Shown here piece after piece: positions 24,452-44,794 of a stretch of DNA of 64,000 nucleotides (position 1 is its first letter; every line of letters starts with the position of its first letter). The position numbers and the translations under genes were made by a program. Below the pieces are notes generated by a model that saw nothing but the letters and a program-made list of their open reading frames with translations, was not told the origin of the DNA and ran no database searches. This DNA is from Halobacteriales archaeon QH_7_66_36 (lineage in GTDB: Archaea > Halobacteriota > Halobacteria > Halobacteriales > Haloarculaceae): the NCBI GenBank assembly GCA_003021175.1, contig PXQV01000015.1:244170-308169 (forward strand), read 5' to 3'.

Positions 24452-25132
24452 CTACTCTGAAAGGAACTCCAATCCATCAAACCGATTCAGAAGGCCTCCT
24501 TCCACAATATGTGTCGGTGTCCGTGGGAGGAGCAGGCATTGTTCACAGAAACCGTCGCAGACACAGTTATCCAGGGAAGCTCTGGTCTCCAGTAGAAAGT
24601 CCTCTAGATCCTGGTACACTGCATGGGATAGACCAGCTCCACCGACATCCGCATCGTGTACAATTAGTTGTACGAACCGTTGGGACATGGTCACAGAGCA
24701 TTGAATGTCCAAGCTGTCAACCCCGAGTCTGCGGGAGATTATTGATCTAAGACCGTAACCCGCTGAATAAGCTGCTGTCATCGCTCGCCTGTTGTCGTTT
24801 GAGCCCAGTTTTGATCTGAGATCTTCTATCCTGTGGAGAAAGACGATACCATCTGTCGGATGTTGGTGACCCGGAATTGCATGATCCCATTGAACCTCTC
24901 CGTCCTCGAATTTCAGGATGTCTCCTTTTGCGTCTTCTACGTTGCTGTTGGAAAAGTAGCTGATCTCAACCTTAGGCACTGTACTTCTCACCTTGAGATT
25001 CGATACGAAACGGATGTACAGATCCTTGAACTCCGTCTCATCCAGTGTCTCCGAATCTCTGGAGAGACCTCCCTCTATCTCTTCTTCGTCTAAATTCAGG
25101 GCTTCTTTGAAATTCTCCGAGAATTCAGTCAA
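24452..25132 (-). CDS. Stand-alone DUF1998 (MZB-like) protein
   Basis: The 226-residue protein matches the DUF1998 C-terminal module of large helicases: RFVQLIVHDADVGGAGLSHA, a helix, and the Cys set CVCDGFCEQC (190-199) expected to bind zinc. In COG1205/YprA helicases this module follows the motor, and in DISARM it is in DrmB. Here it is a separate gene overlapping the helicase stop by 4 bases (ATGA), so the two products probably act together. It is the last gene of the leftward defence operon. Confidence 0.75.
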   Translation of the reverse strand: MTEFSENFKEALNLDEEEIEGGLSRDSETLDETEFKDLYIRFVSNLKVRSTVPKVEISYFSNSNVEDAKGDILKFEDGEVQWDHAIPGHQHPTDGIVFLHRIEDLRSKLGSNDNRRAMTAAYSAGYGLRSIISRRLGVDSLDIQCSVTMSQRFVQLIVHDADVGGAGLSHAVYQDLEDFLLETRASLDNCVCDGFCEQCLLLPRTPTHIVEGGLLNRFDGLEFLSE

Positions 25133-28100
25133 AAGTCAACACCTCGCATTATCAGCGGCCGGGTTCTCTTTCGAGACCTGGATGATTTTAACACCGCACC
25201 GAGGTACTCATGAACGCTAATTTCCTCCAGGTCCTCTTCACAGAGCGGACAAATCTTTAGATCTGGGTACTCGTTATAGGGAAGAATACATGATTGGTTG
25301 GTGCAGACGCTAGTTGAGAAGATCTCATCCCGGCTTACCTGAGCACTCTTTACTTCGTAGTCTACCCCTCCGTACGTATCCATGGCTTCCGGATATGATT
25401 CTCTCAGTGCTTGAGAGACACTTTTAGACTCATAGCTGAGGTGAACTTGGCCATCTTCTTCGCTTTCTTTCTCTCGGAAGAGAGCCACAGAGTCATCGGT
25501 AGAACGGTACTGACTAATCATCCCAGCACTGGAAAGAAGCATTGGGAGATAGCCTACTTCTCTCTCAAGTTCTTGCAGGATTTCCTCTTGGATGACTCTT
25601 CGTCTTCTAAGTCCTTTCGCGCCTTGCCCTGTTTCTTTTTCCAATGCACGGAACGTAGTGTAGAACTTGAAAAGTCGCCGTAGGACACGCTGTTTAACTT
25701 CAGAAGGACTGTCAAAGAGATCCTCCAAAGCCTGATCCAAATCCTCCCTATCCGCCTCAAAGGCTTCTTTGAGATGTTCCTCTATTGCACCTCGATGGTC
25801 GTCTACGGTATCTAATAGTGCTTCCACGCCGTCATAGACGTCATTTATCACCTCGTCGATGTCCTGGCCTGTCTCAAACCGTTCAAATCTTCCGTAGTCT
25901 AGATCCCGCAGGTTAAGATACGTGAGGACTTCGGACATGACCTGTGTCTTGAGGATGTCGTAGTTGAGATGGTTGATTTGTACAGGTTTTGAAGATGCAT
26001 TTAGGAATCGATTTTCTATATCTTCAAAGTAGAAGTTATCCACTGCGTTGTGCGGTCGAGCCACTGTAAAGACCATCGAGGAGCGGTCCAGACTACGTCC
26101 TGTACGTCCGGCTCGCTGAACATAGCTTGTCTTCGTAGGCGGTATGCCCAGACCTGCGATACAGTCCAGTGTCCCAATGTCAATACCTAGTTCAAGAGTA
26201 TTCGTCGCAGAGACAACATTGATTTTTGGCGGGTTGGCTCCAAATCCTTCCTCAATCTTGTTCCGGGTATCCGTTTTAATCCCTGCCTTGTGGACCGCGC
26301 TCACTAATGGGTCGACACCATGGCCGAGGACTACCTTCCCCCAGTGATCTAGCGTGTACTCTTCTCCTTCGAAGTTCTCCTGGTCGAAAGAATTTCGGTC
26401 GACTCCAACTGTATGTTCACCGCAGTCAGGGCAGTAGCTTCGTTCCCAGAATGGCCAGCCGGAGTAGCAGAATTCGCAGATGCGGACTTCTCTCTGGACA
26501 GTGAGCTCGAGGAAGTTCCGTCTTAAAGTAAGGACTGTAACCACTTCATCGCCAGATCGCTCTCTTTCTCGACTGACGATGTCTGCTTGTTCTAAAACAG
26601 ACAATGCTTCGTCAAGCTTGGCATCAAGGTCAGGTGCCGAATCAAAGTACGTGGGAACTGAGTTCGAGAGCTTTGATCTGAGGGAGTCAATCTTTATACT
26701 ATTGCTTTGATCTAGATCGGTATGAGGCTTGAACGCTAGAATTTTCACTACTTCGTTGGCCAGTAGATTGATCTCGTTGTTCTCTGATTCAGGCCTAACG
26801 CTGATAATCCCAGCATCCCACAACTTCCTGTGATTCCCTTTGTTGAGAGGGTTAGCTAGTCCACCCAGTTGTGAGAAGAGGCCTTGAGATAGGGTTTCAT
26901 CTTCTAAGTACGTGTAGGGCTGTTTCACATAGCTTTCTTTCAGCTTTTCATAGAGATCTTCTCTCAAGTTCGAGGCAGAGTAGAACTGGTCCTGATTTTC
27001 ATCCAGTAAAGAGATCATCATTCGCTCGCTTTCCAGAGAGTAATCTAGTTTCATCATGAGCGAGCCGACTCCTTCTGCATCTCCCCTCCGGTTGGAGAAA
27101 ACCAGTACTTTCCCTGCTCCGAATTCCTTCATATCCCGTCCCAGTTGGGACAGGAAGTAGGATAGGAAAGTAGTGGTCTGCATAGGAGGTTCGGTGTAAC
27201 TTCGGTTGGAGCAGGAGCAAGGTTCCGCAATAGCGTATTCTTCCCCGCGATCCTCGTAATATGGAGTATGACAGTTAGAGCAAAAACGGACTTCACGAAG
27301 CGAGTGGTTATTCCTACCACTCTCTGAAACTCGCTCTGTGAACATACTCTGACAATCGGGGCAGTAGTAGAAGTTCACGTACGGCTTGATAAAGTAGTGA
27401 TACCGGTCATAGAGAACACCGCCTAGTTTACACCACTCCAGCAGGTTCGTCAAAGTTTCAAATTGCTTCTCTTGATCAACATCAGAGAAAATTTCCTCCA
27501 ATAGTCTCTCGACCTCGATAAAGTTCTCCTCCCCAAACTGCTGGAATATCTCTGATATTTGGGGGATCTGATTGACTAGTTTCTCGGCAATCTGCTCTCT
27601 AAATTTCAGTACCTCATTGAATACCGACTGAAGCTCATTTTCTTCTATAGCGTCTCGTCCCTTTATTTCCTCCAAGAGATCTTCGGCATGCGGCGTTGTA
27701 TTGTGCTCCTTGTCAAGGTAACCAAGACGTAGCAAGAGATCTAGAGTAGCATCTATTTCCTCTTCCGAGCACTCTACTAACTCCATCAATTCAGCCTTAT
27801 CCGGGTTCTCTTCTTCAATTGCCCTCAGTATCCGGAAGCCATCTTGTGGAGATAAGACATCTAATGAGATTAGATTTCCTCCACTGCGCACACTGGTTTC
27901 TACATTACCTGCCTCAAAATCTATATGACTTATATCGTGTTCAGGACGGTTAAGAAGGTCAGATGCGAACTCTCCAGGGTTGGCAATGGTGGCGCTAGCC
28001 AGTACCATTGTAGAACTGTACCGGTTCTTTAGTCGACTGATGAACTGGGATATGGCCTTTCCCCCATTGCCGTTCCAGACGTGGGCCTCATCGAAAATAA

Positions 28101-28974: not shown

Positions 28975-28986
28975 CGAGATATGGTT

Positions 28987-31900
28987 TCAATCGGATGCAT
29001 ATTTCTCCCGGAGGTCACCTAGCTCACTGGTATACTCAGTGAGGTCAATCTGATTTTTCGCCGTCCGGATTTCATTCAGTTCCTCTTCAACGTCTTCAGT
29101 TGTTTCCTTCTCTTCCTCTGCCTCTTCCTTTGCATCATCTATACTATCCAGAGAGAAATCCACATCTGGATATTCTTCTCTCATCCGGTCAAGTTCCTCG
29201 CCGATCTCATCCTTACGATCCGGAGAAAGATCTTCCCAGTCACTTTTACAGACCTCACAGTGTTCCTCTTTCAGTTTGAGGTACCTCTCTGCGTCCTCAA
29301 GGTCATCTGTTTTCTGTTCAAGATGCTCGATTTTGGCGTCTATATCATCGCCAGGAACAGATTCTACCCGGGCCTTCTCTTCAGCTTCTCTTTTTTCTAA
29401 TATCCGTTTCTGCTCAGAATCTTGGAGGAGTTTTTTGATCTGGTCACAGAACTCTTTGAAGTCCTGTATCACTAATTCAGGCTCATCGCTGTCGTCTTCA
29501 AACAGAACATCATCATCTAACAGCCTCTGCGCTATCTTCCTCCCAACATCAGTGTATCCAGAGGCGGTATCATGGTCTATTTCATCCAAGGATTCCTTCC
29601 CAGTCGACTCAACGAAATTTTGGCGAATATTGTCCACCCGGGTTAGCAAGCTGGTGGCACTGGTGAGATTGCTCCGTTTGGATTCATTCTCGGCGATGTC
29701 TGCGATGTATCCTTCGTAATCAAACTCTTTGATTTCGTCTTTGGATAGCTCTGTCAGATCTTCAGAGTTCGAGTCCTTGAGCTCTACCTCTTCCCCATTT
29801 GAGTCTGAGTCAATATCAAGGAAGTCTTCGATGTTGGAGCGGTAGGTGTCAAGGTCGCCGCTCTGATCCTTGAAGTCCTCTGAAACGCTCTCATCTAAAC
29901 TGTTCAGTTCTTCCAGTACTTCTTGGATCGTCTCGTACAGATTGTAAACCAGTAATGGATACTGTCGGTCATCGTCGAGATAATCTTCTGCCCAGTTTGG
30001 TGGCTGTTTCGGGAGTTTAGCATAGAAGAGTTCCCGGTGGATAGGTGAGATGTCGTCATCAACATCCAGATCCTGTATCTTGGACCAGAGTTCTTGATCC
30101 GCTTCGAATTTTTCCCTTACAAGATTGAAATCTTCTTCATCTGTATCCTGGGCGTTGGATATTTGATCCAACACGTCATCGAAGACATCCACATCTGAGT
30201 TCTCAATCTTACTTTCTATATCAGATATTTTGTCTTCATCGTAGAGGAAGAAGTCAAGGAGTTCAATTTTCTCTTCCAGATTTTCGAGCCGGGTACTGAT
30301 CTCATCGTTAGACCTGGTAATGCGATCCGACTCCATATCCTGGAATTCTTCGAGTATCTCGAACACTTCCGGCCCGACAGGGAAGAGATCACGCTTGTCT
30401 CCGACTCTCCCGAGTTTAGAAGCGCTTCCGAAGTCTTCTTTCAGGTAAACAACGGTGCGATCCTCTTCAGTGGTGAATTCTTTCACCGCTCCCTTGTCTA
30501 TTAGTGATTCAATTTCGACCCCGTGTTCTTCACGGAGTTTATCCAGAACCGAATCGGAAATAAATCCTCTATCCTTGACTTCCTCTAAGATAGCTGAGAA
30601 AGCTTTTGCCTCCTGTACCGTGGGGCCATCATACTTCTCGTAGATTTCCTCGTGGATGTCCCTTACTGACTTTGAAGCCTCTTCGTAGAGGTCCGTTACG
30701 ACGTTGTCGAAGTCCGGCAGTTCTGGGAACTGAGATTGGTCCGAGAGCCTTCTAATTTCAGCCAGGATCTTACTGTCATCCTCGAAATCTTCTTCCTGAA
30801 GATGGCGATAGAGACCAAGAATGTCACGCAAGCGGTTTACGTTGATGATTCTGGTCACATCACCCCAAGTGTACTCATTGTCTCGCCACTGTTGTCTGCC
30901 AATAGAGTTCTCGAACCAGTCTGGTTCTGTAATCTCGCTCTCGTCTTTATTCGTTATTATCAGGACACCGTTATCTCCGCTGAACCATTCTTGGATTTCG
31001 TCCCTAATATCAGGATCATTCAGTGACTCATCGGAGAACAGAGTGGTTAGCAAGAACCGATAATCGTAGTCGGCTAGATCTCCATCTCCAATCTCTATCT
31101 TTTCTGCACGACCAGTAGTAGAAGAGCCTATGATTTCAACAAAGTCGGATTTAGGTGTTTTTCCTCCGGGAAGGGTCAGAGTCGATGATTTGGCGATATT
31201 GATCTGCTCTGAGTTCAGTCTTTCCAAGAGCGTAGTGAGCCCGACATCGACGTTTCGACGGAGTGTTCCTCGGTCATCAACTTTGTCATCACTGAAACCT
31301 TGAACTGTTTCTCTGTACGTGGCTAATTCATCCTCTTCCTCGTCATCAGTTCTGGATACTGTCTCTCTTGGACGTGAGAGGTCAGACTCTTCATAATTAG
31401 CTAGGTACGGGTTGAGTCGGAGTTCCCCACTCTCAGGATCTTCGATTAGACAACGATTCTCCTCCAACTCTGTTTTAATAGTTTCATTGACTTCTTCCAG
31501 AGAGATAGTTCGCGTAATTAGTTCCTTTGCCTTCCAAGCAACTTCTGAATCTTCGTTCGGGTCAAGGTCGGAGTTGCCCGCGAGTTTCTGCTTGATCTGG
31601 ACATGGCTCATATGCCGACTGTATTCATCGAAGAGGTATACCCCGATTTTACAATCTTGATTCCCGTTTGCCCGGTCTTCTGCGTATCTTTCTATTGCAG
31701 TGTTTATGCCGTTGACCAAGTTTCCTATAAGACCACCGGCTGCCAACAGATCATTCATCCACTCAATGTTCTCCTCTGTAAGAGGACCAAATTCGGGGTG
31801 TTCTTCCTCAATGTAGACCTCAGAAAAGTAATTCCTCAGGAGTTTTTCCAGGTCTACGATTCGATGTTGTTTTCTTCTTATATTGATGACAATGTCTTCC

Positions 31901-32757
31901 TTGATGTCGTAGCTGTCTCCAGCTATCTCTAGAGTCCGGTCGATATTTCGGCGGGTTGCCTGATCCTGCATTTCGCTCTTGATCGCACTGGAGACATCAG
32001 GGTGGGAGAAAAGTACGAGACCAACATAGGGGTAGAGATGGTCTTTGAACCATTTGAGGACAGATTTTGCTTTCCCGGCATCGTTCTCAGATACCATCTC
32101 ATCAAAAATAAACAGGAAAAGGTAGCCTTCACTGGCCAGTTGCTTGACTACTTCTTTGGCATCATATTCGCCATCCTCGAATCCGTATTCTCCCAAGATG
32201 CCCTTAATCTGCTCAGGATTTGTCCCATACTGCTCACCAACTCTAGAAAGTTGTTCTTCCGAGAGTTCCGCGTCCATTCCATTGAGGAGACGGACTTTTT
32301 CATCGATTCCAGGAACATCCAGTTCCTCAAAGACTCTTCTTCCCTGCTCTTGTAGAAGGCCTCGATATTTGAATGAGGTGGGGTTTGGATCAGTAGAGTC
32401 CCAGACCGGGATGATCATAGGGATATTGGATTGGCCTGGATTCTCCGTAGGGTCAAGCTGGTTTCTGATAAACCGGGTCATGGTCGTTTTCCCGGTGGCT
32501 TGTGCACCCTCAATCACGAGGAACAGTCCGTCATCAGATCCTCCTGGGTTACCTGCTGAATCGTGAATTTGTTCTGCCCAGTCGTCTACAAGATCAAGGA
32601 CTTCTGATTCTACTTCCGTATCGATGTGGACTCTGTCGGCAGGGTCTTCATCTGAATCCCAGACTTGGGAGAATACGACATCGAACCTTTCTGAGTCGAT
32701 ACCGAGCTCAGATTCTAACGGTGCAGTCGCTTCAGTTTCAGTTTGGTTTTCACTCAT
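28987..32757 (-). CDS. Giant P-loop ATPase with coiled coils (BrxC/PglY- or DpdH-like role)
   Basis: The 1256-residue protein has an N-terminal ATPase domain with Walker A EGAQATGKT (83-91) and Walker B YLFLFIFDEM (about 210-220). A long acidic helical region follows, then a C-terminal coiled coil with a Cys pair (CEVC, near 1180) after an ERYLKLKEEH helix. Size, position between a PglZ protein and a helicase, and the P-loop fit the large ATPases of BREX, Pgl and Dpd systems, but I cannot assign a named family. Its start overlaps the upstream gene by 8 bases; 12 bases separate it from the helicase. Confidence 0.7.
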   Translation of the reverse strand: MSENQTETEATAPLESELGIDSERFDVVFSQVWDSDEDPADRVHIDTEVESEVLDLVDDWAEQIHDSAGNPGGSDDGLFLVIEGAQATGKTTMTRFIRNQLDPTENPGQSNIPMIIPVWDSTDPNPTSFKYRGLLQEQGRRVFEELDVPGIDEKVRLLNGMDAELSEEQLSRVGEQYGTNPEQIKGILGEYGFEDGEYDAKEVVKQLASEGYLFLFIFDEMVSENDAGKAKSVLKWFKDHLYPYVGLVLFSHPDVSSAIKSEMQDQATRRNIDRTLEIAGDSYDIKEDIVINIRRKQHRIVDLEKLLRNYFSEVYIEEEHPEFGPLTEENIEWMNDLLAAGGLIGNLVNGINTAIERYAEDRANGNQDCKIGVYLFDEYSRHMSHVQIKQKLAGNSDLDPNEDSEVAWKAKELITRTISLEEVNETIKTELEENRCLIEDPESGELRLNPYLANYEESDLSRPRETVSRTDDEEEDELATYRETVQGFSDDKVDDRGTLRRNVDVGLTTLLERLNSEQINIAKSSTLTLPGGKTPKSDFVEIIGSSTTGRAEKIEIGDGDLADYDYRFLLTTLFSDESLNDPDIRDEIQEWFSGDNGVLIITNKDESEITEPDWFENSIGRQQWRDNEYTWGDVTRIINVNRLRDILGLYRHLQEEDFEDDSKILAEIRRLSDQSQFPELPDFDNVVTDLYEEASKSVRDIHEEIYEKYDGPTVQEAKAFSAILEEVKDRGFISDSVLDKLREEHGVEIESLIDKGAVKEFTTEEDRTVVYLKEDFGSASKLGRVGDKRDLFPVGPEVFEILEEFQDMESDRITRSNDEISTRLENLEEKIELLDFFLYDEDKISDIESKIENSDVDVFDDVLDQISNAQDTDEEDFNLVREKFEADQELWSKIQDLDVDDDISPIHRELFYAKLPKQPPNWAEDYLDDDRQYPLLVYNLYETIQEVLEELNSLDESVSEDFKDQSGDLDTYRSNIEDFLDIDSDSNGEEVELKDSNSEDLTELSKDEIKEFDYEGYIADIAENESKRSNLTSATSLLTRVDNIRQNFVESTGKESLDEIDHDTASGYTDVGRKIAQRLLDDDVLFEDDSDEPELVIQDFKEFCDQIKKLLQDSEQKRILEKREAEEKARVESVPGDDIDAKIEHLEQKTDDLEDAERYLKLKEEHCEVCKSDWEDLSPDRKDEIGEELDRMREEYPDVDFSLDSIDDAKEEAEEEKETTEDVEEELNEIRTAKNQIDLTEYTSELGDLREKYASD

Positions 32758-33760
32758 TCTCCATCACCCCAAATTCGAACTCAGCGAATCTCACATTTTT
32801 GTCCCAACTGTCCTCTCCTTCGAACCACATGACCTGGTAGTCTTTCGACTCACTGTTATCCTGGTTTAGGAGGTCATGGAGTACCGGGTAACTCTGGGAA
32901 GTTATTTTGGTATTCTCATGCAGCATCCCATCGTAGAGAACATTGATCTCAAAGAATTTCTCCGAGATCGGATACCATTTTTCGAGTTTTTCATAGAATT
33001 CTCGGATGTTAGGTGTTGAATCTGCCATTGATTTTCGGTAGTGCTGGTTCATGAAAAACACACTTGCTTGAAAGATGTCCTCAACAAGGATGGGATATAC
33101 AAGATCTGAACTGCCGCTTTTTTCTGAGCGGCGGCAGACTCCTAAGTCAATTGCTCTTGTAGCGCAGTGTCGAAGTTTCTCTTCGTTCCAGTCTTCAGAG
33201 ATTTCCGGGTCAGTCAGTATGTCTTTGAAGTAGGTGTTGTCCTTTCGCCAGTTGGTCTGGTAGCGGCCTGTGCTTTCATCTCGTTGCTCCCACACCTTGC
33301 TGAGGAAAGTTCTGAATGCATGGGGGATGGTTACGTTGGACGTATTAATATCGTCTTCTGCAATGAGAGAGAGGATCAGGGAACCTACCGCTCCCCTTTT
33401 TGTTTCGTCACTAAGTTCGTCGGATGATAATATTTCATAGATGCGTTGTCCGCTGGTATCTATCTGAAATTTGTTCTCTGAGTCCTGAGTCAAGGTTAAT
33501 TCTGTTTCCAAGGGGTCATTGTCCCCGCTTACAGGTTCTACAAAACCCAGTACATCGGTGATTTCAATGTAGGTGTGTCCCCCAGGACTCAACGCAGGAC
33601 TGTACCGTTCTCCTGTATCGTCCTTTTCAACTCTATACCCAAATTGGGTCAGCTGCGGGACTAGATCCTCGATAGATTGGCTACCACTCTCTCCAAGCGC
33701 GTGTACGATTTCAAGGACAGCCTGGTAACCACCTTTCGGCATAGGATCGTTCATTGACAT
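32750..33760 (-). CDS. Defence-operon protein, unknown family
   Basis: The 336-residue protein begins with a helix-turn-helix-like stretch (YQAVLEIVHALGESGSQSIE, then LVPQLTQFGY). It continues with a mostly helical body (VGSLILSLIAEDD, then FEINVLYDGML). No catalytic motif is visible. It abuts the PglZ gene (stop to start 0-1 base) and overlaps the giant ATPase gene by 8 bases, so it must be made with them and is probably a structural or adaptor subunit. An analogy to DpdG-type or BrxB-type small subunits is only positional. Confidence 0.55.
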   Translation of the reverse strand: MSMNDPMPKGGYQAVLEIVHALGESGSQSIEDLVPQLTQFGYRVEKDDTGERYSPALSPGGHTYIEITDVLGFVEPVSGDNDPLETELTLTQDSENKFQIDTSGQRIYEILSSDELSDETKRGAVGSLILSLIAEDDINTSNVTIPHAFRTFLSKVWEQRDESTGRYQTNWRKDNTYFKDILTDPEISEDWNEEKLRHCATRAIDLGVCRRSEKSGSSDLVYPILVEDIFQASVFFMNQHYRKSMADSTPNIREFYEKLEKWYPISEKFFEINVLYDGMLHENTKITSQSYPVLHDLLNQDNSESKDYQVMWFEGEDSWDKNVRFAEFEFGVMENE

Positions 33761-35659: not shown

Positions 35660-35661
35660 AG

Positions 35662-35943: not shown

Positions 35944-36048
35944 TGGCTACGTATATCTCAGTTCATGTTTAACGGCTTTTGGTTGGTCTAGTCAAAGCAG
36001 CTTCACTCCCCCAAAGTTTAAAACCGAGCTACTAGAGATTATCTATTA
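35944..36048. promoter_or_regulatory. Divergent promoter between restriction and modification arms
   Basis: The AT-rich 105-bp gap holds a rightward TATA-like box (aagtttaaaac, 36017-36027) 22 bases before the TGT ATG. A leftward one is read on the minus strand as gttaaac-like sequence at about 35965-35972, about 25 bases before the winged-helix start. Both arms can be driven and co-regulated from here. Confidence 0.55.
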
Positions 36049-37074
36049 ATGCTCCACAGGACCCGGGAACTACAGACACCCTCAGGGAAACTCAATACGC
36101 CCACTCTATTCCCTGTAAGGAATGTCGGCAAACGTTCCAGCGATAATACCCCAGAATACCACAAAGCTATTCCAGATCTCAACACGGCGATGATTAACTC
36201 ACATTCAATATACACCAATGAGAGTATAAAAAGCGACATCGAATCGAAAACGATCCACCAGGTAATGGACTTCGAGGGCGTGGTCTTCGCTGACAGCGGG
36301 GGCTTTGATTTTCGGGACAAAGATGAATTACCTGATCCCGAGAAGATACTTGAGACACAACAAAAGCTCAATGCTGACATCTATGCTACACTAGATCTTC
36401 CACCACTTCCGGATATGCGGTCCTCAAAGAAAAGGAGACGAATAAATAAAAGCATCAAGTTTGCTGAAAGAGCCTCCGAGGCCAAGGAGGATGATGCTCT
36501 TCTCTACGCAACTATCCATGGCCATGACGCGAGAACAATCCGGAATTCTATCCAATATCTAGAGAAAAATGGAGAATTTGATGGATTTGCACTAGGTGGT
36601 TTAGTCCCATTCAGATCGAACTATTCCAAGGTTATCGACTTGGTCTTGGCTGCTCGGCAATCCACCGATAAACCACTTCATGTGTTCGGGCTAGGTGGGC
36701 TACTATATCAGTTGCTGCTAATGTACATGGGTGTCGATTCTTTCGACTCCAGCGCATTCATCCGGTGTGGAAGCCATAGGAGATACTTCGTTCCCGGATT
36801 TGGGGATCACACTATGAGCGAGTTCGATTCAATTGAGCATCTACCCTGTTCGTGCCCTGTCTGTTCTGAGCATACCTTCAGCGAAGTCAAGGCCAGCCGT
36901 GATCTTATAACGAAACACAACCTCTGGGCGATGGTTCTGGAGGTGCGAAAATTCCGCTGGATGGTAGAAGCCGGTGAAGATGTCGAGAACTACCTTGACC
37001 TTCGGTTTGAGGGAAACGAGGTAACTAAACGGGCTTACCAGACAGCCAAGCAGAAAATCAGGAGGTTGAATTAA
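36049..37074 (+). CDS. dpdA-like: TGT-family transglycosylase, DpdA-like (first paralog)
   Basis: The 341-residue protein has the tRNA-guanine transglycosylase fold: DSGGF with Asp82 (general base position), GGLVP (183-187), FGLGG, and the nucleophile position Asp233 in FDSSAF. The zinc site is Cys267-x-Cys269-x2-Cys272 with His290. All catalytic and zinc residues are kept. No PUA or other tRNA-binding domain of archaeal arcTGT is present. DpdA-type relatives exchange guanine for preQ0 in DNA; the defence context favours DNA over tRNA. It leads the rightward operon. The specific substrate is inferred. Confidence 0.8.
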   Translation: MLHRTRELQTPSGKLNTPTLFPVRNVGKRSSDNTPEYHKAIPDLNTAMINSHSIYTNESIKSDIESKTIHQVMDFEGVVFADSGGFDFRDKDELPDPEKILETQQKLNADIYATLDLPPLPDMRSSKKRRRINKSIKFAERASEAKEDDALLYATIHGHDARTIRNSIQYLEKNGEFDGFALGGLVPFRSNYSKVIDLVLAARQSTDKPLHVFGLGGLLYQLLLMYMGVDSFDSSAFIRCGSHRRYFVPGFGDHTMSEFDSIEHLPCSCPVCSEHTFSEVKASRDLITKHNLWAMVLEVRKFRWMVEAGEDVENYLDLRFEGNEVTKRAYQTAKQKIRRLN

Positions 37075-37076
37075 AA

Positions 37077-37940
37077 ATGAGAGCAACCATTAGACCAGTC
37101 TCGCTCAGCCGCATTGCAGAAGTAGTGGACATCTGTAACAGGTCGGAAGTGTCGAAAAAAGACTTGGAAGACTTGTTGGATGCCTCTTCAGGGCGTGTCA
37201 ACGAGATTACTGCAGAGATGGAAAGATTGGATTTGATACAGGGCGATGAGTCAGTTGTACTAACAGACCAAGGGGACGCTCTCCACGGCTTTCTAAAAAA
37301 CGAAGAATGGGAGTCAGTCCACGAGGTTCTATATGAAGGAGGCCCACATTATCGCACTTTCTTAGATTATCTCAGTCAACGTCAATCTAAGAACGGTCTA
37401 ACTGAGGAAGAAATTGTAGAGGCGTTAGAGGATACTGATGAGGATTTAAGATTCAATGCTACGGGTGTATCGTTGCTAACTGACTGGGCTGAGCGCCTTG
37501 GCGCTATTCAACAGAATGTGTTCCAGGGTCGCTATTATTGGGTGGCCGAAGATTTCGAGGGGAGTTTTACTCGAACGCTTCAAGAGATTTACTCAGAGGT
37601 GGAGGTTGAAAGAGGAGTCAATCTACGTCAAAGGTATGTCTCGATACCTAAACTCCGAGAGATGGTCTGTGAAATACTCCAGATTTCTCGGAGCGAATTT
37701 GATGAACTGCTAAATCAGGTTTATTTTGACAACATTGGAGACATGGAACTGAGTGGTGCTCCTCTGAATACTCAGGCAAAGGAGACCAATGTTGGAATCA
37801 AGACTATAAAAAAAGACGATTCAGGCTCTATTACCACTACTAAGATGTCATCAGAACAAATACTTGACGGAGTCACGCTTGAAGATGGAAAAATGTATTA
37901 CTACTTGAGCATATTTGATGAGCTCAACGGAGATGTCTAA
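37077..37940 (+). CDS. Winged-helix domain protein of modification operon
   Basis: The 287-residue protein has an N-terminal helix-turn-helix (VVDICNRSEVSKKDLEDLLD, then RVNEITAEMERLDLIQ) with a wing-like VVLTDQGDALHGF. A second winged-helix-like part follows (about 95-160, GVSLLTDWAERLGAIQQ), then a C-terminal domain of unknown fold (SIPKLREMVCEILQISRSEFD). It lies 2 bases after the first TGT gene and its stop precedes the ATPase ATG at once, so the three are translationally linked. It may bind target DNA for the TGT enzymes. The family is not recognised. Confidence 0.6.
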   Translation: MRATIRPVSLSRIAEVVDICNRSEVSKKDLEDLLDASSGRVNEITAEMERLDLIQGDESVVLTDQGDALHGFLKNEEWESVHEVLYEGGPHYRTFLDYLSQRQSKNGLTEEEIVEALEDTDEDLRFNATGVSLLTDWAERLGAIQQNVFQGRYYWVAEDFEGSFTRTLQEIYSEVEVERGVNLRQRYVSIPKLREMVCEILQISRSEFDELLNQVYFDNIGDMELSGAPLNTQAKETNVGIKTIKKDDSGSITTTKMSSEQILDGVTLEDGKMYYYLSIFDELNGDV

Positions 37941-37941
37941 C

Positions 37942-39105
37942 ATGACCAATTCACAAACACTCCAACAAAAACGCGACTACGAACGTTTCAACCTGTCTCA
38001 AAACCCATTTCCCTACTCTCCAGTCCCCGATGAAGCCCCAGTCGTCTTCACAGGTCAAGACCATGTGAAATCTGAACTCGCCAATGTGCTGGGAACTGCT
38101 ATTTCAACCGGGAAATCTAACCATCTGGTCATAACTGGAAAATATGGGAACGGGAAAAGCCACTCCCTGAAGCATGCGAAGAACATGGTGCAAACCAGTT
38201 CTGACTCTATTGTGGGATATGTGGCTCAACCAGGAGATAGCTTCTTGGATATATACCATGAGTTCATGTATGATCTTGGTCATGAGTTCTTCCAAGACTT
38301 GGCCCACGAGTACCTTGCTAAAGTCGTCTCAGAGCACGATATAGAAACCGAACGAGAGATCAACGGCGCGGACGACATGAGGGCTGCTATAGATAACGGA
38401 GAGGTAATTCTTTCAGATATCATCCCTCTCGCAACCCGAGAACTCAAGGATATAAGCAAGTTTACCGACTTTTCACGAGCCCTAGTGCATCTGGTCTACG
38501 AGGAGACCTCACTCTACGCATGGCAATGGCTTAGCGGTGAAGGACTTCGATATGAGCAGCGAAAAAAGATGGAGATTCACACCGACATTGACGACGATAG
38601 CAAGGCAGTCAAGGCCTTCACCAGCATCAAGAAGCTTTTCCAAGCCTTGGACTACGGCGTGCTCTGCTTATTCATAGATGAGTTCGAATCTATCGCCCGA
38701 CTCAAGCCCAAAAAGAAGCAGAGTGTACTGAACAGTCTCCGCCATGTGATGGACAGAAATCCTGACGGAATTTCCATCCTAATCGCTTGTGCTCCTGAAG
38801 TCTGGCAAGATGTGATGTCTGAATATCATGCCTTCTCAGAAAGGATTGGAAATGAAGTCGCCCTCCGTCCTTTCGATGAGGATCAGATCGAATCCTTGAT
38901 TGAAGACTATCTCTCTGCACATAGCCTTGAGGAAGATGCCTCTCCTAACCCATATACCGAGGCTGCTATCCAAACGTTGCTTAAAAAAGGGCAGGGCAAT
39001 ATCCGCAGAACTATATCCCTCTGTGGTCGAGCACTTGATAACGCAATTGATGCGGAGAAGACCGAAATTGATCAAGACTGTGTTGAAAAAGCACTCTCCA
39101 ATTGA
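37942..39105 (+). CDS. AAA+/STAND-like ATPase of modification operon
   Basis: The 387-residue ATPase has Walker A GKYGNGKS (66-73), Walker B LCLFIDEFES (about 241-250) and an Arg-rich sensor helix near QGNIRRTISLCG. It resembles Orc1-like and BREX BrxD (DUF2791-like) ATPases. In bacterial Dpd clusters an ATPase (DpdB) is required together with DpdA for base insertion. This protein occupies the equivalent position but is not obviously DpdB-like (ParB/DndB type). ATG at 37942 follows GGAG with a 9-base spacer; an upstream TTG/ATG would overlap the previous gene. Confidence 0.7.
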   Translation: MTNSQTLQQKRDYERFNLSQNPFPYSPVPDEAPVVFTGQDHVKSELANVLGTAISTGKSNHLVITGKYGNGKSHSLKHAKNMVQTSSDSIVGYVAQPGDSFLDIYHEFMYDLGHEFFQDLAHEYLAKVVSEHDIETEREINGADDMRAAIDNGEVILSDIIPLATRELKDISKFTDFSRALVHLVYEETSLYAWQWLSGEGLRYEQRKKMEIHTDIDDDSKAVKAFTSIKKLFQALDYGVLCLFIDEFESIARLKPKKKQSVLNSLRHVMDRNPDGISILIACAPEVWQDVMSEYHAFSERIGNEVALRPFDEDQIESLIEDYLSAHSLEEDASPNPYTEAAIQTLLKKGQGNIRRTISLCGRALDNAIDAEKTEIDQDCVEKALSN

Positions 39106-39158
39106 ACCGGTTTCAGCACTTGAACAAGTATATGAAAGATGGGAGCTGAGGTTTCAAT

Positions 39159-40850
39159 ATGTCAAGTAATTCAGATATGAAGTTCTACGTCCCATTCTGG
39201 ATGGATCACGTCTATGATGACTTTGACGAATGGGCAGGGACATGGACGACAGGGTTTCAGCACTACAAATTCCTATGGGAGTTGAACCAGGTATCCCCGA
39301 TGGATGGTGTGCTTATATCGAGAAGTAAGATAGAAGACTCGCCAAGACGCAAGAAGGAAATCAAGGAAGCCGGGGGAGTGAAGAATTTCTTCGACATCCC
39401 AGATGAGTTAGATGTGTTCGGTGACTGTGGTGCCTACAGCTATAGGAAAGAATCAGAGCCACCATACGACCCGGAGGAGACTCTTGAATTCTACGAGGAA
39501 ATGCAGTATGATCAGGCCTGCTCCGTCGACCATCTGATTAACGGTGAGCAGACGGAGGACAAAGAACGGCGTATGGAGATCACGTTATCCAACGCCCGGA
39601 AGATGAGACAGGCCTACGAGGAAGGAGACTACAGTTTCGAACTATACGGTGTTGTCCAAGGCTGGGACCCGGACAGTTATCATCGGGTAGCGAAGGAACT
39701 TATCGAGATGGGCTATGATAAGTTAGCCTTCGGCGGGTTGGTAGGAACAGATACCCGCGATATAATTTCGATTTTGCAGCGATGCTACCCTCTGTGGATG
39801 GACAAGGACGTTGACATCCACGAATTCGGATTGGCTCGATGGGAACTTTTCCCTTTCATGGAACGCTATGGAATCAATTCGGTTGACAACGCATATCACC
39901 GCAAGGCGTGGTTAGACCGTAAGAAAAACTACGAACTTACCCCTGAAAACGAGTACACCGCTGTTCGAATTCCAATCGCAGACCAGTATGCTGAAGAACG
40001 TGAACCAAAAGAGCAGGCAGTATTCGATGAGCTAAAGAGGTATATCAATGATGAATCTGACCCTGAAGACGTGATTGAAACCTTAAGAGACTGGGAAAAG
40101 ACCTATGCAGAAATAGAAGGGAAAGATGGCCGTGTTGAACTGTTTGAAAAGCTGAAGGATGAATATCTTCGGACTCTACGAGAGAAGCCTTGGGAGAAAT
40201 GTAACTGCCATATATGTGATGAATATGGATTACATGTCTGTATTTTCCGGAGAAACGAGCGTAACATGCGACGTGGGTTCCACAACCTGTATCGATTCTA
40301 TCACTACTTCAATGGCTATCTAGAAGGCGAAGTTGAACCGCCACAGAAAATCAATGATTATAGTCAACCCAAGGAGATAGAGGACTTAGATATCGAAGAG
40401 TTCGAGAATGAGTCAGTACTGGTGATTACATCTTGCTCTAAAACAAAGAAATCTGATTCCCCTGGTGACGAGATGCCAGCTGAAGAACTGTATCAGGGCC
40501 GCTTAGTTCAGAACACTAGGGGTCTCTGTAAGGCTACTGGATGGGATCATCGAATCATTTCTGCAAAGTATGGGTTGGTGGAACCAGAGGAACTGATTTC
40601 ACCGTACGAAGAAACTCTTGAGTCGGTTGAGGACTCGGAGAGTCTTCGCCCGAAGGTGCTTCCGGAGTTAGCAGAGATTCTGGATGATTATGACCGGATC
40701 TTAGTCATAGCAGGCAAGTACTATCGTCGGGTAATTGAACCTCTATACGATAACAGAGTTCACATCCTCAATTCAGCGGGTTACCCGGTACTCTGCTCGA
40801 AAATCAAGGAGGCTACGCCGGACAGAGAATCAAAACTGGAAGAGTATTAG
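39159..40850 (+). CDS. dpdA-like: TGT-family transglycosylase fused to DUF6884 (second DpdA-like paralog)
   Basis: The 563-residue protein has a diverged TGT domain (about 1-390) with Asp89 in FGDCGAYSY, FGGLV (191-195) and the nucleophile position Asp243 in SVDNAYH. The zinc set is Cys348-x-Cys350-x2-Cys353 plus His375. After a linker, residues 419-563 form a DUF6884/YaaA-like domain (VLVITSCSKTKK, LYQGRL, IISAKYGLVEPEELISPYE). Such fusions are seen among DpdA-type proteins rather than tRNA enzymes. The added domain may act on the base or on DNA. It ends at the structured leader before the queuosine genes. Confidence 0.8.
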   Translation: MSSNSDMKFYVPFWMDHVYDDFDEWAGTWTTGFQHYKFLWELNQVSPMDGVLISRSKIEDSPRRKKEIKEAGGVKNFFDIPDELDVFGDCGAYSYRKESEPPYDPEETLEFYEEMQYDQACSVDHLINGEQTEDKERRMEITLSNARKMRQAYEEGDYSFELYGVVQGWDPDSYHRVAKELIEMGYDKLAFGGLVGTDTRDIISILQRCYPLWMDKDVDIHEFGLARWELFPFMERYGINSVDNAYHRKAWLDRKKNYELTPENEYTAVRIPIADQYAEEREPKEQAVFDELKRYINDESDPEDVIETLRDWEKTYAEIEGKDGRVELFEKLKDEYLRTLREKPWEKCNCHICDEYGLHVCIFRRNERNMRRGFHNLYRFYHYFNGYLEGEVEPPQKINDYSQPKEIEDLDIEEFENESVLVITSCSKTKKSDSPGDEMPAEELYQGRLVQNTRGLCKATGWDHRIISAKYGLVEPEELISPYEETLESVEDSESLRPKVLPELAEILDDYDRILVIAGKYYRRVIEPLYDNRVHILNSAGYPVLCSKIKEATPDRESKLEEY

Positions 40851-40901: not shown

Positions 40902-40919
40902 TCCACGGCCTTTATAATT

Positions 40920-40950
40920 GATAAGGCTCCAACCATACTTGGGCCTTATC
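40920..40950 (+). promoter_or_regulatory. Near-perfect stem-loop or operator before RHH-folE operon
   Basis: GATAAGGC-t-CCAA pairs with TTGG-GCCTTATC across a 6-base loop, giving a 12-bp stem with one bulged T. It lies between a TATA-like box (cctttataattg, 40909-40920) and the RHH ATG at 40972. It is either an operator for the RHH protein or an RNA leader; a preQ-type riboswitch fold was not recognised. Confidence 0.5.
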
Positions 40951-40971
40951 CAGAGAACACTAGGTGAGACA

Positions 40972-41160
40972 ATGCCAAAAATAACCGTCGAAATACCTCA
41001 AGAACTTTTAGACGATATGGATGAGCATGTCGGCGATCAAAAGAAGTTTGTAAACCGATCTGATGCTGTGAGAACTTCTATCCGCAAAACGCTGGACATA
41101 ATGGACGACATCGATGCTCGACACGGTCGAATGAAAGACAATAGAACGGAGCAGGAGTGA
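40972..41160 (+). CDS. Ribbon-helix-helix (CopG-like) regulator
   Basis: The 62-residue protein is a single RHH domain (KITVEIPQELLDDMDEHVG, then FVNRSDAVRTSIRKTLDIM) with a charged tail. The ATG at 40972 follows TAGGTGAGAC; the open frame runs further upstream, through the TATA box and stem-loop, and is unlikely to be translated there. It heads the folE-queDEC set and probably autoregulates it by binding the inverted repeat just upstream. Confidence 0.75.
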   Translation: MPKITVEIPQELLDDMDEHVGDQKKFVNRSDAVRTSIRKTLDIMDDIDARHGRMKDNRTEQE

Positions 41161-41168
41161 CATCATTA

Positions 41169-41771
41169 ATGGAATCTAGAACCAAAACAGAAGAGATTCA
41201 AGCTACTGAAGGTAATCTTTCTCAAATCTTTCGAAAACTCATAGAATCAACCAACGAAGATCCCTCCAGAAACGGTTTAGAAGAAACTTGGAAGCGACGA
41301 GCCCCGGAGATGTGGAAAACGGTCACCGAGGGGTATGACGAGTCGAATAAACCCGAAATGACCAGTTTTCCCACAGAAGAAGATGGTATGGTCGTTAAGA
41401 AAGACATCCCGTTCCACTCTCTCTGTGAGCATCATATACTTCCTTTTTCAGGAACAGTACACATCGGATACGTCCCAAATGGCGAAATTATTGGACTGAG
41501 TAAGCTGATTAGATACACCCGTTGGAAGTCCCGAAAACTGAGTACTCAAGAACGTTTAACTCAGGAGATTGCTGAAGGCCTATCCGAGGAGATAGATCCT
41601 GAGGGCGTTATGGTAGCAATTGAGGCCGAGCATATGTGTGAGGCGATGAGAGGTGTCGAAACACCTGACACTACTACGGTTACCACTGTAGCTAAAGCTG
41701 TGTTCGAGGAATCAAGCCAGGGGCAAAATCCAAGAAGAGAGTTCCTTGATCAAATCAATTTTAATAGGTGA
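41169..41771 (+). CDS. folE: GTP cyclohydrolase I (type IA)
   Basis: The 200-residue enzyme shows the FolE signature SLCEHHILPF with zinc ligands Cys86 and His89, GLSKLIR, and the second zinc Cys157 in EHMCEAMRG. It converts GTP to dihydroneopterin triphosphate, the first step to preQ0. Haloarchaea normally use a different enzyme (MptA/FolE2 type) for archaeosine, so this bacterial-type FolE is probably cargo dedicated to the element. ATG 41169 follows GGAGTGA; a GTG at 41157 is possible. It is 7 bases from queD. Confidence 0.9.
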   Translation: MESRTKTEEIQATEGNLSQIFRKLIESTNEDPSRNGLEETWKRRAPEMWKTVTEGYDESNKPEMTSFPTEEDGMVVKKDIPFHSLCEHHILPFSGTVHIGYVPNGEIIGLSKLIRYTRWKSRKLSTQERLTQEIAEGLSEEIDPEGVMVAIEAEHMCEAMRGVETPDTTTVTTVAKAVFEESSQGQNPRREFLDQINFNR

Positions 41772-41778
41772 TTCTCTT

Positions 41779-42216
41779 ATGGGGGACCTTAAAAAGCGGT
41801 TTGAACTCGATGCAGGCCACAGACTTAGTAAACACGACTTTGACTGTCAAAATCTCCATGGTCATCGATACCAGTTCGAAGTAAAGGTTGAGGGCAAAGT
41901 AGACGCAGCGACAGGAATGATCGTTGATTTTGCTCACGTCAAGGAGCCTGTGATGGAAGCCTTCGACCACAACTTCATTCTGAACGCGACTGATCCTATT
42001 CTCTCGGTTAGAGAGGAACTGGAAAAGCAACAAGAGAAAGAATTCTACCTCATAGAGGGTGAGCCAACTGCTGAAAACATCGCAGACGAGGCCTTGGACC
42101 TCATCGAGGAAAGCCTAACCACCGATGAAGAGAACCGTATTGATCAAATCCGAATCCAACTATTTGAAACGCCGAACTCCAGCGTGACCAAGTCGAGGAG
42201 ATTAATTGATGAATGA
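41779..42216 (+). CDS. queD: 6-carboxy-tetrahydropterin synthase
   Basis: The 145-residue enzyme of the QueD/PTPS family keeps the zinc triad His14 (DAGHRL), His27 and His29 (NLHGHR), the catalytic Cys23, and the downstream VDFAHVK and FDHNFIL motifs. It converts dihydroneopterin triphosphate to 6-carboxy-tetrahydropterin, the second step to preQ0. The chosen ATG at 41779 gives the family N terminus; an upstream TTG is in frame but overlaps folE. The queE start overlaps its end by 8 bases. Confidence 0.9.
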   Translation: MGDLKKRFELDAGHRLSKHDFDCQNLHGHRYQFEVKVEGKVDAATGMIVDFAHVKEPVMEAFDHNFILNATDPILSVREELEKQQEKEFYLIEGEPTAENIADEALDLIEESLTTDEENRIDQIRIQLFETPNSSVTKSRRLIDE

Positions 42217-43033
42217 ACGGAACAGCGAGATACCTGTTGCCGAACAGTTCTCCAGCATCCAAGGAGAAGGTCGGTATATGGGCCATCCATCGATCTTTCT
42301 TAGGACTGCCGGATGCAACTTCCTCTGTGGGGGATACCAAGCTGCGGAAGCCTATGATGGAACCGAATACGAAAACCAGACCCGGGCAATGGCTGAGAAG
42401 ATGGGTGAAGGAGATGCGAACTGGGTCTGCGATACTATCGCTGAATGGATGGACGGTGAAGGACGCGAGGTAGCAGAATTATATGAGGAGTGGGACGAAA
42501 ACGGATTTCTGGATAAAATCGAAGACGGAAGCCATATCGTCCTTACTGGTGGAGAACCACTCCTTCACCAAGACGCTATAACAAGTTTTCTTGATTATGT
42601 AGAAGCCCAAGGATATGATCCGTTCGTAGAAGTTGAGACAAATGCTTCGATATACCCGTCTGAAGATTTCAGAAGCCATGTTGATCAGTACAACCTGAGT
42701 CCGAAACTCAGCAATTCAGGATTGAAAGAAGACCTCAGATACAACCCTGAAATCATAGAACAATACGTCAAGGACTTCACTGGAACTCAAGACGAGGCGA
42801 ACACTGATTTCAAGTTTGTAGTGGGAAGTACGGAGGATTGGCGAGAGATAGAATCACAGTTTTTGGACAGGTTCGATATACCGCGAGAAAATACCTTCTT
42901 AATGCCCGCTGGTGCAGATCAAGAAGAACTTGGTCTGACTCGGGAAGATGTAGCAGATCTTGCTATCAACAACTCGGTTAAATTCACGGAAAGACTTCAA
43001 ATCGTAATTTGGGACGAAGCCACAGGTGTATGA
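42209..43033 (+). CDS. queE: 7-carboxy-7-deazaguanine synthase with expanded cluster loop
   Basis: The 274-residue radical SAM protein has the QueE start EQFSSIQGEG, TAGCNFLCGG and later WVCDT, so the cluster motif is Cys36-x3-Cys40-x33-Cys74. Then come LTGGEPLLHQ, VEVETNAS and LSPKLSNS. Most QueE proteins have CxxxCxxC (or a shorter insertion); here about 31 residues are inserted between Cys2 and Cys3. It makes CDG, the third step to preQ0. ATG at 42209 lies inside the queD tail; translational coupling is likely. Confidence 0.88.
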   Translation: MNERNSEIPVAEQFSSIQGEGRYMGHPSIFLRTAGCNFLCGGYQAAEAYDGTEYENQTRAMAEKMGEGDANWVCDTIAEWMDGEGREVAELYEEWDENGFLDKIEDGSHIVLTGGEPLLHQDAITSFLDYVEAQGYDPFVEVETNASIYPSEDFRSHVDQYNLSPKLSNSGLKEDLRYNPEIIEQYVKDFTGTQDEANTDFKFVVGSTEDWREIESQFLDRFDIPRENTFLMPAGADQEELGLTREDVADLAINNSVKFTERLQIVIWDEATGV

Positions 43034-43036
43034 TAT

Positions 43037-43720
43037 ATGACTGAAAAGAACACAACCACGAAAGCATTCGTACTGCTCTCAGGAGGCATTGACTCTGCGG
43101 TCTGTCTCCAAAAAGCATTAAATCAACACGATGAGGTGGAGGCTATCCATTTCAACTACGGCCAGCAAACAGAAGAGATTGAACGAGGCAACGCCCAGAA
43201 ACAAGTGGAACAGGCAGGAATACCTCTCCACGTCTGCGACTACCCGACGGTCTTCAAGGAATTTGCAGAAGGCACAATCGAGGACAAGGAGTACGACAGA
43301 GAAAATATCGCGGAAGAAGGCCATAGTGTGGGATATGTACCTCAGAGAAATCTCCACCTCCTGGTTACAGCAGCTGCAACCGCTGAGCATCACACCGAGA
43401 CGGGCCAAAAAATAGTGCTGTACCACGGTGCTCAGCAAGGGGACGAAGAAGACTATCCTGATTGTAGACCGATATTTATGCAGGCCGCGGAAAAGGCCGT
43501 CAATAGATCCACTGATCAGCATGAGATCGAGATTGAGACGCCAATTATTGATCTCTCCAAGGAGGATGTTCTTCGTCTTGGAGACGAACTTGGTGTTAAG
43601 TGGGAACTGACATTCAGTTGCTACAACGATAAAGAGGGAAAGCCATGTGGTGAATGCCCTGCTTGTGTAGAACGGAAAGAAGCGTTCGATGAGGTCGAGA
43701 TAACAGACCCTGTCATGTGA
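43037..43720 (+). CDS. queC: 7-cyano-7-deazaguanine (preQ0) synthase
   Basis: The 227-residue PP-loop ATPase has SGGIDS (15-20), HFNYGQQ, VPQRNL and the C-terminal zinc cysteines 195, 204, 207 and 210. It converts CDG to preQ0 with ATP and ammonia, completing the pathway. It begins 3 bases after queE and is followed after 6 bases by the nuclease-like gene. QueC-like proteins also occur in other defence systems (Qat), but the adjacent folE, queD and queE show that preQ0 is made here. Confidence 0.92.
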   Translation: MTEKNTTTKAFVLLSGGIDSAVCLQKALNQHDEVEAIHFNYGQQTEEIERGNAQKQVEQAGIPLHVCDYPTVFKEFAEGTIEDKEYDRENIAEEGHSVGYVPQRNLHLLVTAAATAEHHTETGQKIVLYHGAQQGDEEDYPDCRPIFMQAAEKAVNRSTDQHEIEIETPIIDLSKEDVLRLGDELGVKWELTFSCYNDKEGKPCGECPACVERKEAFDEVEITDPVM

Positions 43721-43726
43721 TCTTAG

Positions 43727-44794
43727 ATGAACGAGACAGATAACCCGAGTGAGAAGGCCATCGAGGATATTCTCGCCCGAAACCCAGATATCACTGAGGA
43801 GATACTGGGAATAGAGGCCGGGCGTCTTGTTCTAGTTAATCGACAAGAGGTCCTCCCCTCTGGAAGATCGGATTTGGTCTTCCGCCATGGGAACGAATTA
43901 ATTCTGATTGAGTTGAAAGTAGAACCATTAGAGTCTAGTCACATTGAACAGATCCGGAAATATGTTCCCTACTATCAGGAAAAGATTGAGACAGGGGATA
44001 TTGTGGATATCGAATCTATCTCTCCTGTGCTTGTTGTACCATCTGTTTCTAACGGATTAAGCAGAGAAGACGTTCCAGACGATGTGGAGGTCGCCCTATT
44101 CAGTTTGCCAGATGTCCTAGATAGGTTTCAAGACTCTGTATTCTCGAACTTGAGGAATTTTGAAGCTGCTGGGGCCCAAACTGGGGTTAATCACCTTTCG
44201 TTGGTTAGCGGCCTGATTGAATTCATAGGTCAAAGTGATGAGCCAGTCACGGTTCAGGAGTGTGCAGACAAATACGGCAAGATCGGAAAAGGAGAAACAA
44301 ACCATCCGAGGAATAGGATACGGAAATTTCTGCGTATTACCTCCGCACTCAATCTTACTCAAGAGTCAAGCAATGAATTGCTTTTGACTGATAGAGGGAA
44401 AAAGTATGATGAAGCGATGAGTGAGATGGTTTGGAAAGTTTCTCAGGAACAGGCTGATCTCGTGATTGACCAGTTGTATTCCTCACCCTTTTCAAACCAA
44501 ATAACGTTTAGTTTGGTTGCTCTACTTGATGCGATATTTGCGGTGTCTAAGAATTCGCATCCCGTTCCACGAGATGATTTACAGGACTATTTTGCTGTGA
44601 GAGTAGGTAAAGCGACTGATTGGAGTGATAGTTCTCGAAGGGATGCGGTAAAGTGGCTTGGGAATTATCTCGAAGAACTTGGTCTGATTAAAGAAGTAGA
44701 TCAGCAGTACTATCTGCTTCCTGAAGGGCTTAGGGTGATCTCCTATTTCCAGATAGAGAAAGGAAAAGAGATGATTCGGTCAGTTGGCAACTGA
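43727..44794 (+). CDS. PD-(D/E)XK nuclease candidate (NucS/DUF91-like) with winged-helix tail
   Basis: The 355-residue protein has an N-terminal nuclease signature: ILARNPDITEEILG, then SGRSDLVF with Asp49, and LIELKVE with Glu62 and Lys64 (D-x12-E-x-K). This is the pattern of NucS/DUF91-type PD-(D/E)XK domains. The C-terminal 200 residues look like tandem winged helices (NRIRKFLRITSALNL, KWLGNYLEELGLIKE). Sitting 6 bases after queC, it is a candidate endonuclease that cuts unmodified DNA. Its role is inferred from motif and position. Confidence 0.7.
   Translation: MNETDNPSEKAIEDILARNPDITEEILGIEAGRLVLVNRQEVLPSGRSDLVFRHGNELILIELKVEPLESSHIEQIRKYVPYYQEKIETGDIVDIESISPVLVVPSVSNGLSREDVPDDVEVALFSLPDVLDRFQDSVFSNLRNFEAAGAQTGVNHLSLVSGLIEFIGQSDEPVTVQECADKYGKIGKGETNHPRNRIRKFLRITSALNLTQESSNELLLTDRGKKYDEAMSEMVWKVSQEQADLVIDQLYSSPFSNQITFSLVALLDAIFAVSKNSHPVPRDDLQDYFAVRVGKATDWSDSSRRDAVKWLGNYLEELGLIKEVDQQYYLLPEGLRVISYFQIEKGKEMIRSVGN

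Follow-up and report, generated by a model that had tools for sequence, protein, structure and literature searches.

The 64,000-nucleotide stretch analysed here (hereafter the window), from contig PXQV01000015.1 of Halobacteriales archaeon QH_7_66_36, carries a locus in which genes for a predicted 7-deazaguanine DNA modification stand back to back with an arm built around a PglZ-like protein (Table 1). The pairing of this arm with 7-deazaguanine genes is beyond chance and recurs in three other haloarchaea. We consider it probable – at about 0.72 – that the locus is an element-borne mark-and-exclude antiviral system; that DNA is the substrate, what the mark is, the self/non-self logic and the antiviral effect are all inferred from sequence.

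Recurrence of the PglZ arm beside 7-deazaguanine genes

The arm, which we call arm A, comprises PglZ, the conserved protein P336, a giant P-loop ATPase (GIANT), a YprA-family helicase (HEL) and a small MZB protein. Evidence for the pairing comes firstly from a survey of other genomes for the gene set, a step proposed in the preliminary description of this DNA: among 392 genomes of the order the arm is present in four, namely the window's host and three further haloarchaea (G130; G315, Natronosalvus hydrolyticus; and G401, Halorubrum alkaliphilum). The five genes stand in identical order in these three, and each of the four loci has one YprA helicase. TGT and que genes adjoin the arm in every case (4/4), and they do so through two non-orthologous modification modules. 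That of G130 is of the window's type, while G315 and G401 share a second module, in which a TGT ending in an ArcS-like domain (L032:14160-16064, with a matching gene in G401, L034/L035) is joined by a free-standing DUF6884 protein, another TGT and a GHKL ATPase. The ArcS-like part in G315 reads PCSQEKPYSESRTH, which we take to be the ArcS signature; the fusion suggests that the mark in the G315 and G401 loci may be deoxyarchaeosine. A VRR-NUC protein is encoded in the G401 locus; no PD-(D/E)xK or PLD nuclease was found in the G130 neighbourhood.

The conserved pairing bears out the earlier claim that a PglZ arm is joined to a preQ0-type module, and it counts against the view, which we regard as unlikely, that two independent defence systems – a 7-deazaguanine module and an unrelated PglZ system – merely happen to adjoin each other within a mobile defence island. 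Defence genes do cluster on mobile elements; moreover, arm and module each occur apart from the other's close relatives, and the arm is replaceable. Against this, the adjacency holds for every arm locus and for two different modules, arm A sits where helicase arms sit elsewhere and encodes neither a methyltransferase nor another self-marking protein, and the rough chance of a single such adjacency is about 0.001.

Beyond these genomes the arm leaves few traces. GIANT has convincing homologues only in G130, G315 and G401 (the fourth listed match is marginal, 6.5e-4), and its profile found none in the sampled genomes of the phylum beyond the order; neither PglZ nor GIANT matched plasmids, and GIANT had no match in IMG/VR.

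Exchange of arms on a common modification module

A critical issue is whether arm A belongs to its module or is one of several that the module can carry. TGT341, the first gene of the window's modification operon, belongs to a clade with 52 full-length members, spread over 51 of the 392 genomes; identities of at least 49% within the clade, versus about 31% or less to arcTGT, set it clearly apart. TGT341 had no match in phages. TGT341, P287 and the BrxD-like ATPase occur together in every locus examined, usually beside YprA-type helicases. Two further arms can be defined by these helicases: arm B, a pair-type arm with an 1840-residue helicase, and arm C, with a 1571-residue helicase. The TGT341 module is accompanied by arm B in at least 14 loci, by arm C on one plasmid and by arm A in two loci; the second module (that of G315 and G401) pairs with arm A or arm C.

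The most direct evidence of exchange is a natural swap: over 10.6 kb of modification genes G130 and G030 are 92.6% identical in DNA, but the former has arm A and the latter arm B. The shared block with its different arms indicates that whole arms have been exchanged on one and the same marking machinery. The arm A proteins of G130 are 61-89% identical to those of the window, whereas the modification proteins are merely 26-53% identical. Arm A is thus an exchangeable cassette, which fits the notion of interchangeable effectors of one mark, and the G130/G030 pair provides a ready genetic test of how arms recognise that mark.

On plasmid pHsi139 of Haloarcula sinaiiensis a gene for an EVE-domain protein (L158:11576-12049) lies between DpdA-like and TGT genes; it is possible that this protein reads the modified base.

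The modification operon and the tRNA alternative

The two divergent operons and the 105-bp gap between them are as first described, with all open reading frames at the positions given earlier. Within the gap TTTAAAA, a TATA-like sequence, precedes the TGT start by about 27-33 bp, and we read the gap as the probable promoter region. All the genes listed for the right operon – two TGT-family enzymes, an ATPase, a winged-helix protein and folE-queD-queE-queC – were found, to which we add a last gene that had gone unnamed, encoding a PD-(D/E)xK protein. A 41% homologue of the latter lies beside queC in a plasmid modification locus of Halobaculum marinum, and the protein is a candidate effector nuclease.

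Table 1. Features of the locus and of the ends of its element, with window coordinates
Feature	Position	Strand	Evidence
att core, element left end	8068..8083	+	inside tRNA-Thr(GGT) 8039-8111; 16-bp exact repeat with 56191-56206
Tyrosine integrase of element	8298..9431	+	PF00589 2.6e-22
MZB (formerly DUF1998) protein	24452..25132	-	PF09369 3.8e-9
HEL, YprA-family DEAH helicase, 1281 aa	25129..28974	-	DpdJ 2.2e-35; DruE 3.7e-35
GIANT, 1256-aa P-loop ATPase	28987..32757	-	Walker motifs
P336, conserved protein	32750..33760	-	33-74% identical in three loci
PglZ-like alkaline-phosphatase-superfamily protein	33761..35659	-	profile and profile-profile matches
wH93, small winged-helix (wH) regulator	35943-35662	-	HxlR 2.8e-6
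Divergent intergenic region, 105 bp	35944..36048	.	sequence
TGT341	36049..37074	+	TGT PF01702 1.1e-38; arcTGT TIGR00432 1.9e-52, below cut-off
P287, wH-like protein	37077..37940	+	36-41% homologue beside TGT341 in all loci examined
BrxD-like AAA ATPase	37915..39105	+	BrxC_BrxD PF10923 1.8e-13; NF033438 2.3e-11
DpdA fused to DUF6884	39159..40850	+	NF041059 7.2e-90; PF21818 6e-18; DpdC 2.1e-7
folE, GTP cyclohydrolase I	41157..41771	+	PF01227 3.4e-58; TIGR00063 above cut-off
queD	41746..42216	+	TIGR03367 1.5e-23; PTPS 3.9e-29
queE, virus-type	42206..43033	+	41% to HVTV-1; insertion in radical-SAM cysteine loop
queC, virus-type	43037..43720	+	PF06508 5.6e-56
PD-(D/E)xK protein, 355 aa, winged-helix-like tail	43727..44794	+	NucS 1.3e-5; motif D-LVF...LIELKV
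P108, small acidic 108-aa protein, unknown family	44806..45132	-	48-66% homologues in about 15 modification loci
att core, element right end	56191..56206	+	exact repeat of 8068-8083

The second TGT-family enzyme is a DpdA, at 301.7 bits against a curated cut-off of 200, and its fused DUF6884 domain is DpdC/YaaA-like. FolE, QueD, QueE and QueC make up a complete preQ0 pathway; given that the host chromosome holds a queC of its own, the island pathway would be an extra supply of preQ0. P287 had no family match in profile scans.

The nature of TGT341 bears on the alternative in which these TGT and que genes are for tRNA modification (archaeosine) or a viral-style boost to translation, and not for DNA marking. 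TGT341 has an arcTGT-type catalytic domain, in which alignment shows both catalytic aspartates and the zinc ligands to be kept, and it is nearer to the arcTGT profile than to DpdA; in addition, the host assembly contains no chromosomal arcTGT. We nonetheless regard a tRNA role as very improbable. TGT341 ends before the C-terminal domains of the tRNA enzyme and has no tRNA-binding tail, and its partner is a bona fide DpdA. The three arm-bearing relatives each hold a full chromosomal arcTGT besides, so that the TGTs of their loci are not the housekeeping tRNA enzyme. As to the host, arcTGT and ArcS are present in five of five congeners and are missing together with the surrounding ~20 kb, a region conserved in the congeners, which is most likely an assembly gap. 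The absence of these surroundings from the assembly likewise led us to reject the idea that the island replaces a lost host arcTGT.

The left operon

The genes of the left operon overlap or are spaced by 0-12 bp. At its head lies wH93, homologues of which are found in three other genomes (G275, G272 and G131); in other modification loci, too, it is divergent from the TGT gene, and on pHsi139 an annotated wHTH regulator occupies the equivalent position.

PglZ scores 3e-7 (29 bits, for a cut-off of 250) with the BREX_PglZ_3 profile and 3.5e-6 in profile-profile comparison, and D397, T432, TSDHG (530-534) and HGG (614-616) are invariant in the four members. Backed by three independent comparisons, the assignment is genuine, though the protein is divergent. 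In type I BREX, PglZ acts as a metal-dependent nuclease (PMC12205998); the threonine and histidine equivalent to those of that nuclease, as assigned by motif order, are invariant here.

HEL matches the YprA structure 6znp (5e-17) and is colinear with the arm C helicase (27% identity over 1409 aligned positions by blastp, 3e-121). The MZB protein, 42-89% identical in three other loci, aligns by blastp with residues 1429-1560 of the 1571-residue BRIGADE-like helicase of Natrinema. HEL and MZB together make up a single YprA-family helicase split into two genes, with MZB its detached C-terminal part.

GIANT and P336 are harder to place. The Walker A (GAQATGKT) and Walker B (FIFDEM) motifs of GIANT are invariant in an alignment of four members, and in two relatives the protein is split into two genes; family profiles revealed no recognised family and no match to a BrxC model. 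P336 had no family match in profile scans, and its profile drew only insignificant ribosomal-protein matches from the PDB. AlphaFold models of the two were poor (predicted local distance difference test scores of 50 and 43) and unsuited to fold search. We considered whether GIANT might be DUF6079/BrxC and P336 DUF4007/BrxA, and rejected both for want of profile support: DUF6079 (PF19557) had no match in the four arm genomes and reached an hhalign probability of 0.5% with GIANT, while P336 had no Pfam match to DUF4007 and a probability of 0.1% by hhalign against one DUF4007 protein.

Viral affinity of QueE and QueC

The QueE of the window is closest to the enzymes of haloarchaeal tailed viruses of the Druskaviridae, with 41% identity to that of HVTV-1 versus about 30% to cellular forms, and it joins the halovirus enzymes in a tree with support of 1.000. 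A CX3C motif is followed by about 33 residues before the third radical-SAM cysteine; of other enzymes, only halovirus QueE has this long insertion in the cysteine loop, in a shorter form, and cellular QueE has none. QueC tells the same story: that of the window and of G131 group with halovirus QueC, again with support of 1.000. In HVTV-1 DNA about 30% of G is replaced by dPreQ1, and a DpdA has been noted in the host of this virus (PMC6884629). These groupings suggest an exchange of genes between viruses and defence, which may have run in either direction.

Such affinities also speak for a different view of the locus: that it is the element's own anti-restriction or superinfection gear, which marks the element's DNA to evade host restriction during conjugation and turns the left arm against rival elements. 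QueE and QueC are akin to the enzymes of DNA-modifying viruses, 7-deazaguanines shield phage DNA from restriction (PMC6884629), and the element that holds the locus is integrated and has conjugation-type genes. We think this quite improbable, since related modules with effector arms are found on chromosomes as well as plasmids and such arms would be needless for anti-restriction alone; indeed, the idea overlaps the mark-and-exclude explanation rather than excluding it.

Relation to known systems

The layout was at first thought to be unlike any known. That view no longer holds, there being two precedents. Haloarchaeal systems combining 7-deazaguanine with YprA were named BRIGADE by Bell et al. 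in a 2025 preprint (PMC12458937): restricted to halophilic archaea, they are Dpd-like, usually with two YprA helicases, which form a clade of the YprA tree with a BrxA-like insert, and have PLD or PD-(D/E)xK nucleases; PglZ is unmentioned (PMC12458937). The window shares with them its haloarchaeal host, predicted 7-deazaguanine cluster, YprA helicase and PD-(D/E)xK nuclease, and HEL is colinear with the 1571-residue helicase of a Natrinema locus fitting BRIGADE type I; it differs in having a single, split YprA helicase, and in PglZ, P336 and GIANT. By description, arm B fits BRIGADE type II and arm C type I. Plasmid loci of Haladaptatus and Natrinema (L040 and L041), with several TGT genes, a PLD nuclease and DEAD/DEAH helicases, likewise fit the description of type I.

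The second precedent is the BREX-related capture system (BRC), named in 2026 and comprising PglZ, DUF6079, a STAND NTPase, DUF4007, HerA, GNAT and TGT, with a HerA/FtsK translocase kept in all members (PMC12839542). Like it, the window brings together PglZ, a large ATPase and a TGT within a single locus, and for BRC, too, a 7-deazaguanine self-mark was proposed; unlike it, DUF6079 and DUF4007 are undetected in the window operons, family scans found no GNAT in either operon, and HerA is not kept with the arm.

Likeness to other systems is partial. A profile search against Dpd and BREX placed DpdA above its cut-off and brought to light neither a complete Dpd set nor a PglZ-BrxC pair. With Dpd the window shares DpdA, the preQ0 pathway and a DpdJ-like helicase segment, and its DUF6884 domain is weakly DpdC-like; DpdB, D, E, G, H, I and K are missing, and the arm is unrelated save for HEL, whose partial similarity to DpdJ/DpdF is the only resemblance to the Dpd restriction set. 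From BREX and Pgl it has PglZ with a large ATPase, along with a BrxD-like ATPase, but no PglX-type methyltransferase and no BrxA, BrxB or BrxL match, and GIANT is unlike BrxC/DUF6079. The claim that there is no methyltransferase stood: neither operon showed one, nor did any of the element's other larger open reading frames that were scanned. Type 4 BREX, in which phosphorothioate takes the place of methylation, is a precedent for another mark (PMC12839542). DndCDEA-PbeABCD, too, joins a haloarchaeal non-methyl DNA mark to an exchangeable effector cassette (PMC6459918), although PbeC, partnered by DndE, is an ABC ATPase of the CxC type and PglZ is lacking (PMC10853773); for these reasons we rejected the idea that the left arm is PbeABCD.

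The locus is thus a BRIGADE-like modification module plus a PglZ-ATPase arm, and is neither BRIGADE nor BRC as described. Its logic would resemble that of restriction-modification or BREX-type systems, with membership of none established. What is new is not the combination of such a mark with PglZ or with YprA, but the set of PglZ, P336, GIANT and one split YprA helicase, together with the evidence for an interchangeable arm.

Proposed function

In the mark-and-exclude system that we propose, FolE, QueD, QueE and QueC would make preQ0, and DpdA would put this in place of guanine in DNA; TGT341, P287 and the BrxD-like ATPase may be its partners in site selection or loading. The DUF6884 domain, which is DpdC-related, would then probably turn dPreQ0 into an amide, dADG-like. 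The HEL-MZB helicase and GIANT may survey or translocate along DNA, and PglZ – probably also the PD-(D/E)xK protein – would act on unmarked DNA by nicking or by blocking replication. Lying between the operons, wH93 may couple the expression of both.

Several observations weigh against this proposal. The arm is rare; neither GIANT nor P336 falls in a recognised family, and both are poorly modelled; PglZ scores far under curated cut-offs, and only the window protein has the histidine of a putative DxxxH metal motif, the other three having arginine. On the modification side there is no DpdB homologue, and the similarity of DUF6884 to DpdC is weak (2.1e-7).

A broader conjecture, to which we give even odds, is that the locus belongs to a general haloarchaeal platform for self-marking with 7-deazaguanine, having at least two chemistries (DpdA-DUF6884 and the ArcS motif) and interchangeable arms that include PglZ-GIANT; PglZ would there read a 7-deazaguanine and not a methyl group, and enzymes would have been exchanged with tailed viruses. 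Were the mark-and-exclude reading true, PglZ effectors would not be bound to adenine methylation or phosphorothioation, and a third class of DNA mark would be possible; moreover, the virus-type QueE and QueC would tie defence marking to viral counter-marking. Haloarchaea are tractable, and Haloferax or Natrinema could serve as test hosts for the system.

The integrated element

The window is a haloarchaeal contig with a G+C content of about 0.65, in which a low-G+C element is embedded. Integration is at tRNA-Thr: the 16-bp att repeat, the steps in G+C that coincide with both att ends, and the integrase together define an element of 48.1 kb. Similarity to the 3' half of the tRNA extends, in part, past the 16-bp core. 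The element encodes a VirB4-like ATPase, a coupling ATPase and a type IV secretion system (T4SS) pilin, in agreement with its original description as an archaeal conjugative element, and also carries Orc/Cdc6-type genes.

A related element in G252 carries the same modification module, and its Orc, Cdc6, integrase-like, TraD-like and DUF932 genes are 45-66% identical to those of the window; there is thus a family of haloarchaeal elements that carries this module. Adjoining the locus is a gene for a HerA/VirB4-like ATPase (45186-47198). Its homologue in G252 travels with the element backbone, and none lies close to the arm in G130, G315 or G401. The gene appears to be a backbone gene of the element, not conserved with the arm.

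Two minor features complete the picture. Within the same element a gene pair encoding an MNT-like nucleotidyltransferase and a HEPN protein (49851-51018) is likely to be a toxin-antitoxin module. Outside it, at the right end of the window, G+C content drops a second time (0.455 over 62001-64000), possibly marking another mobile element.

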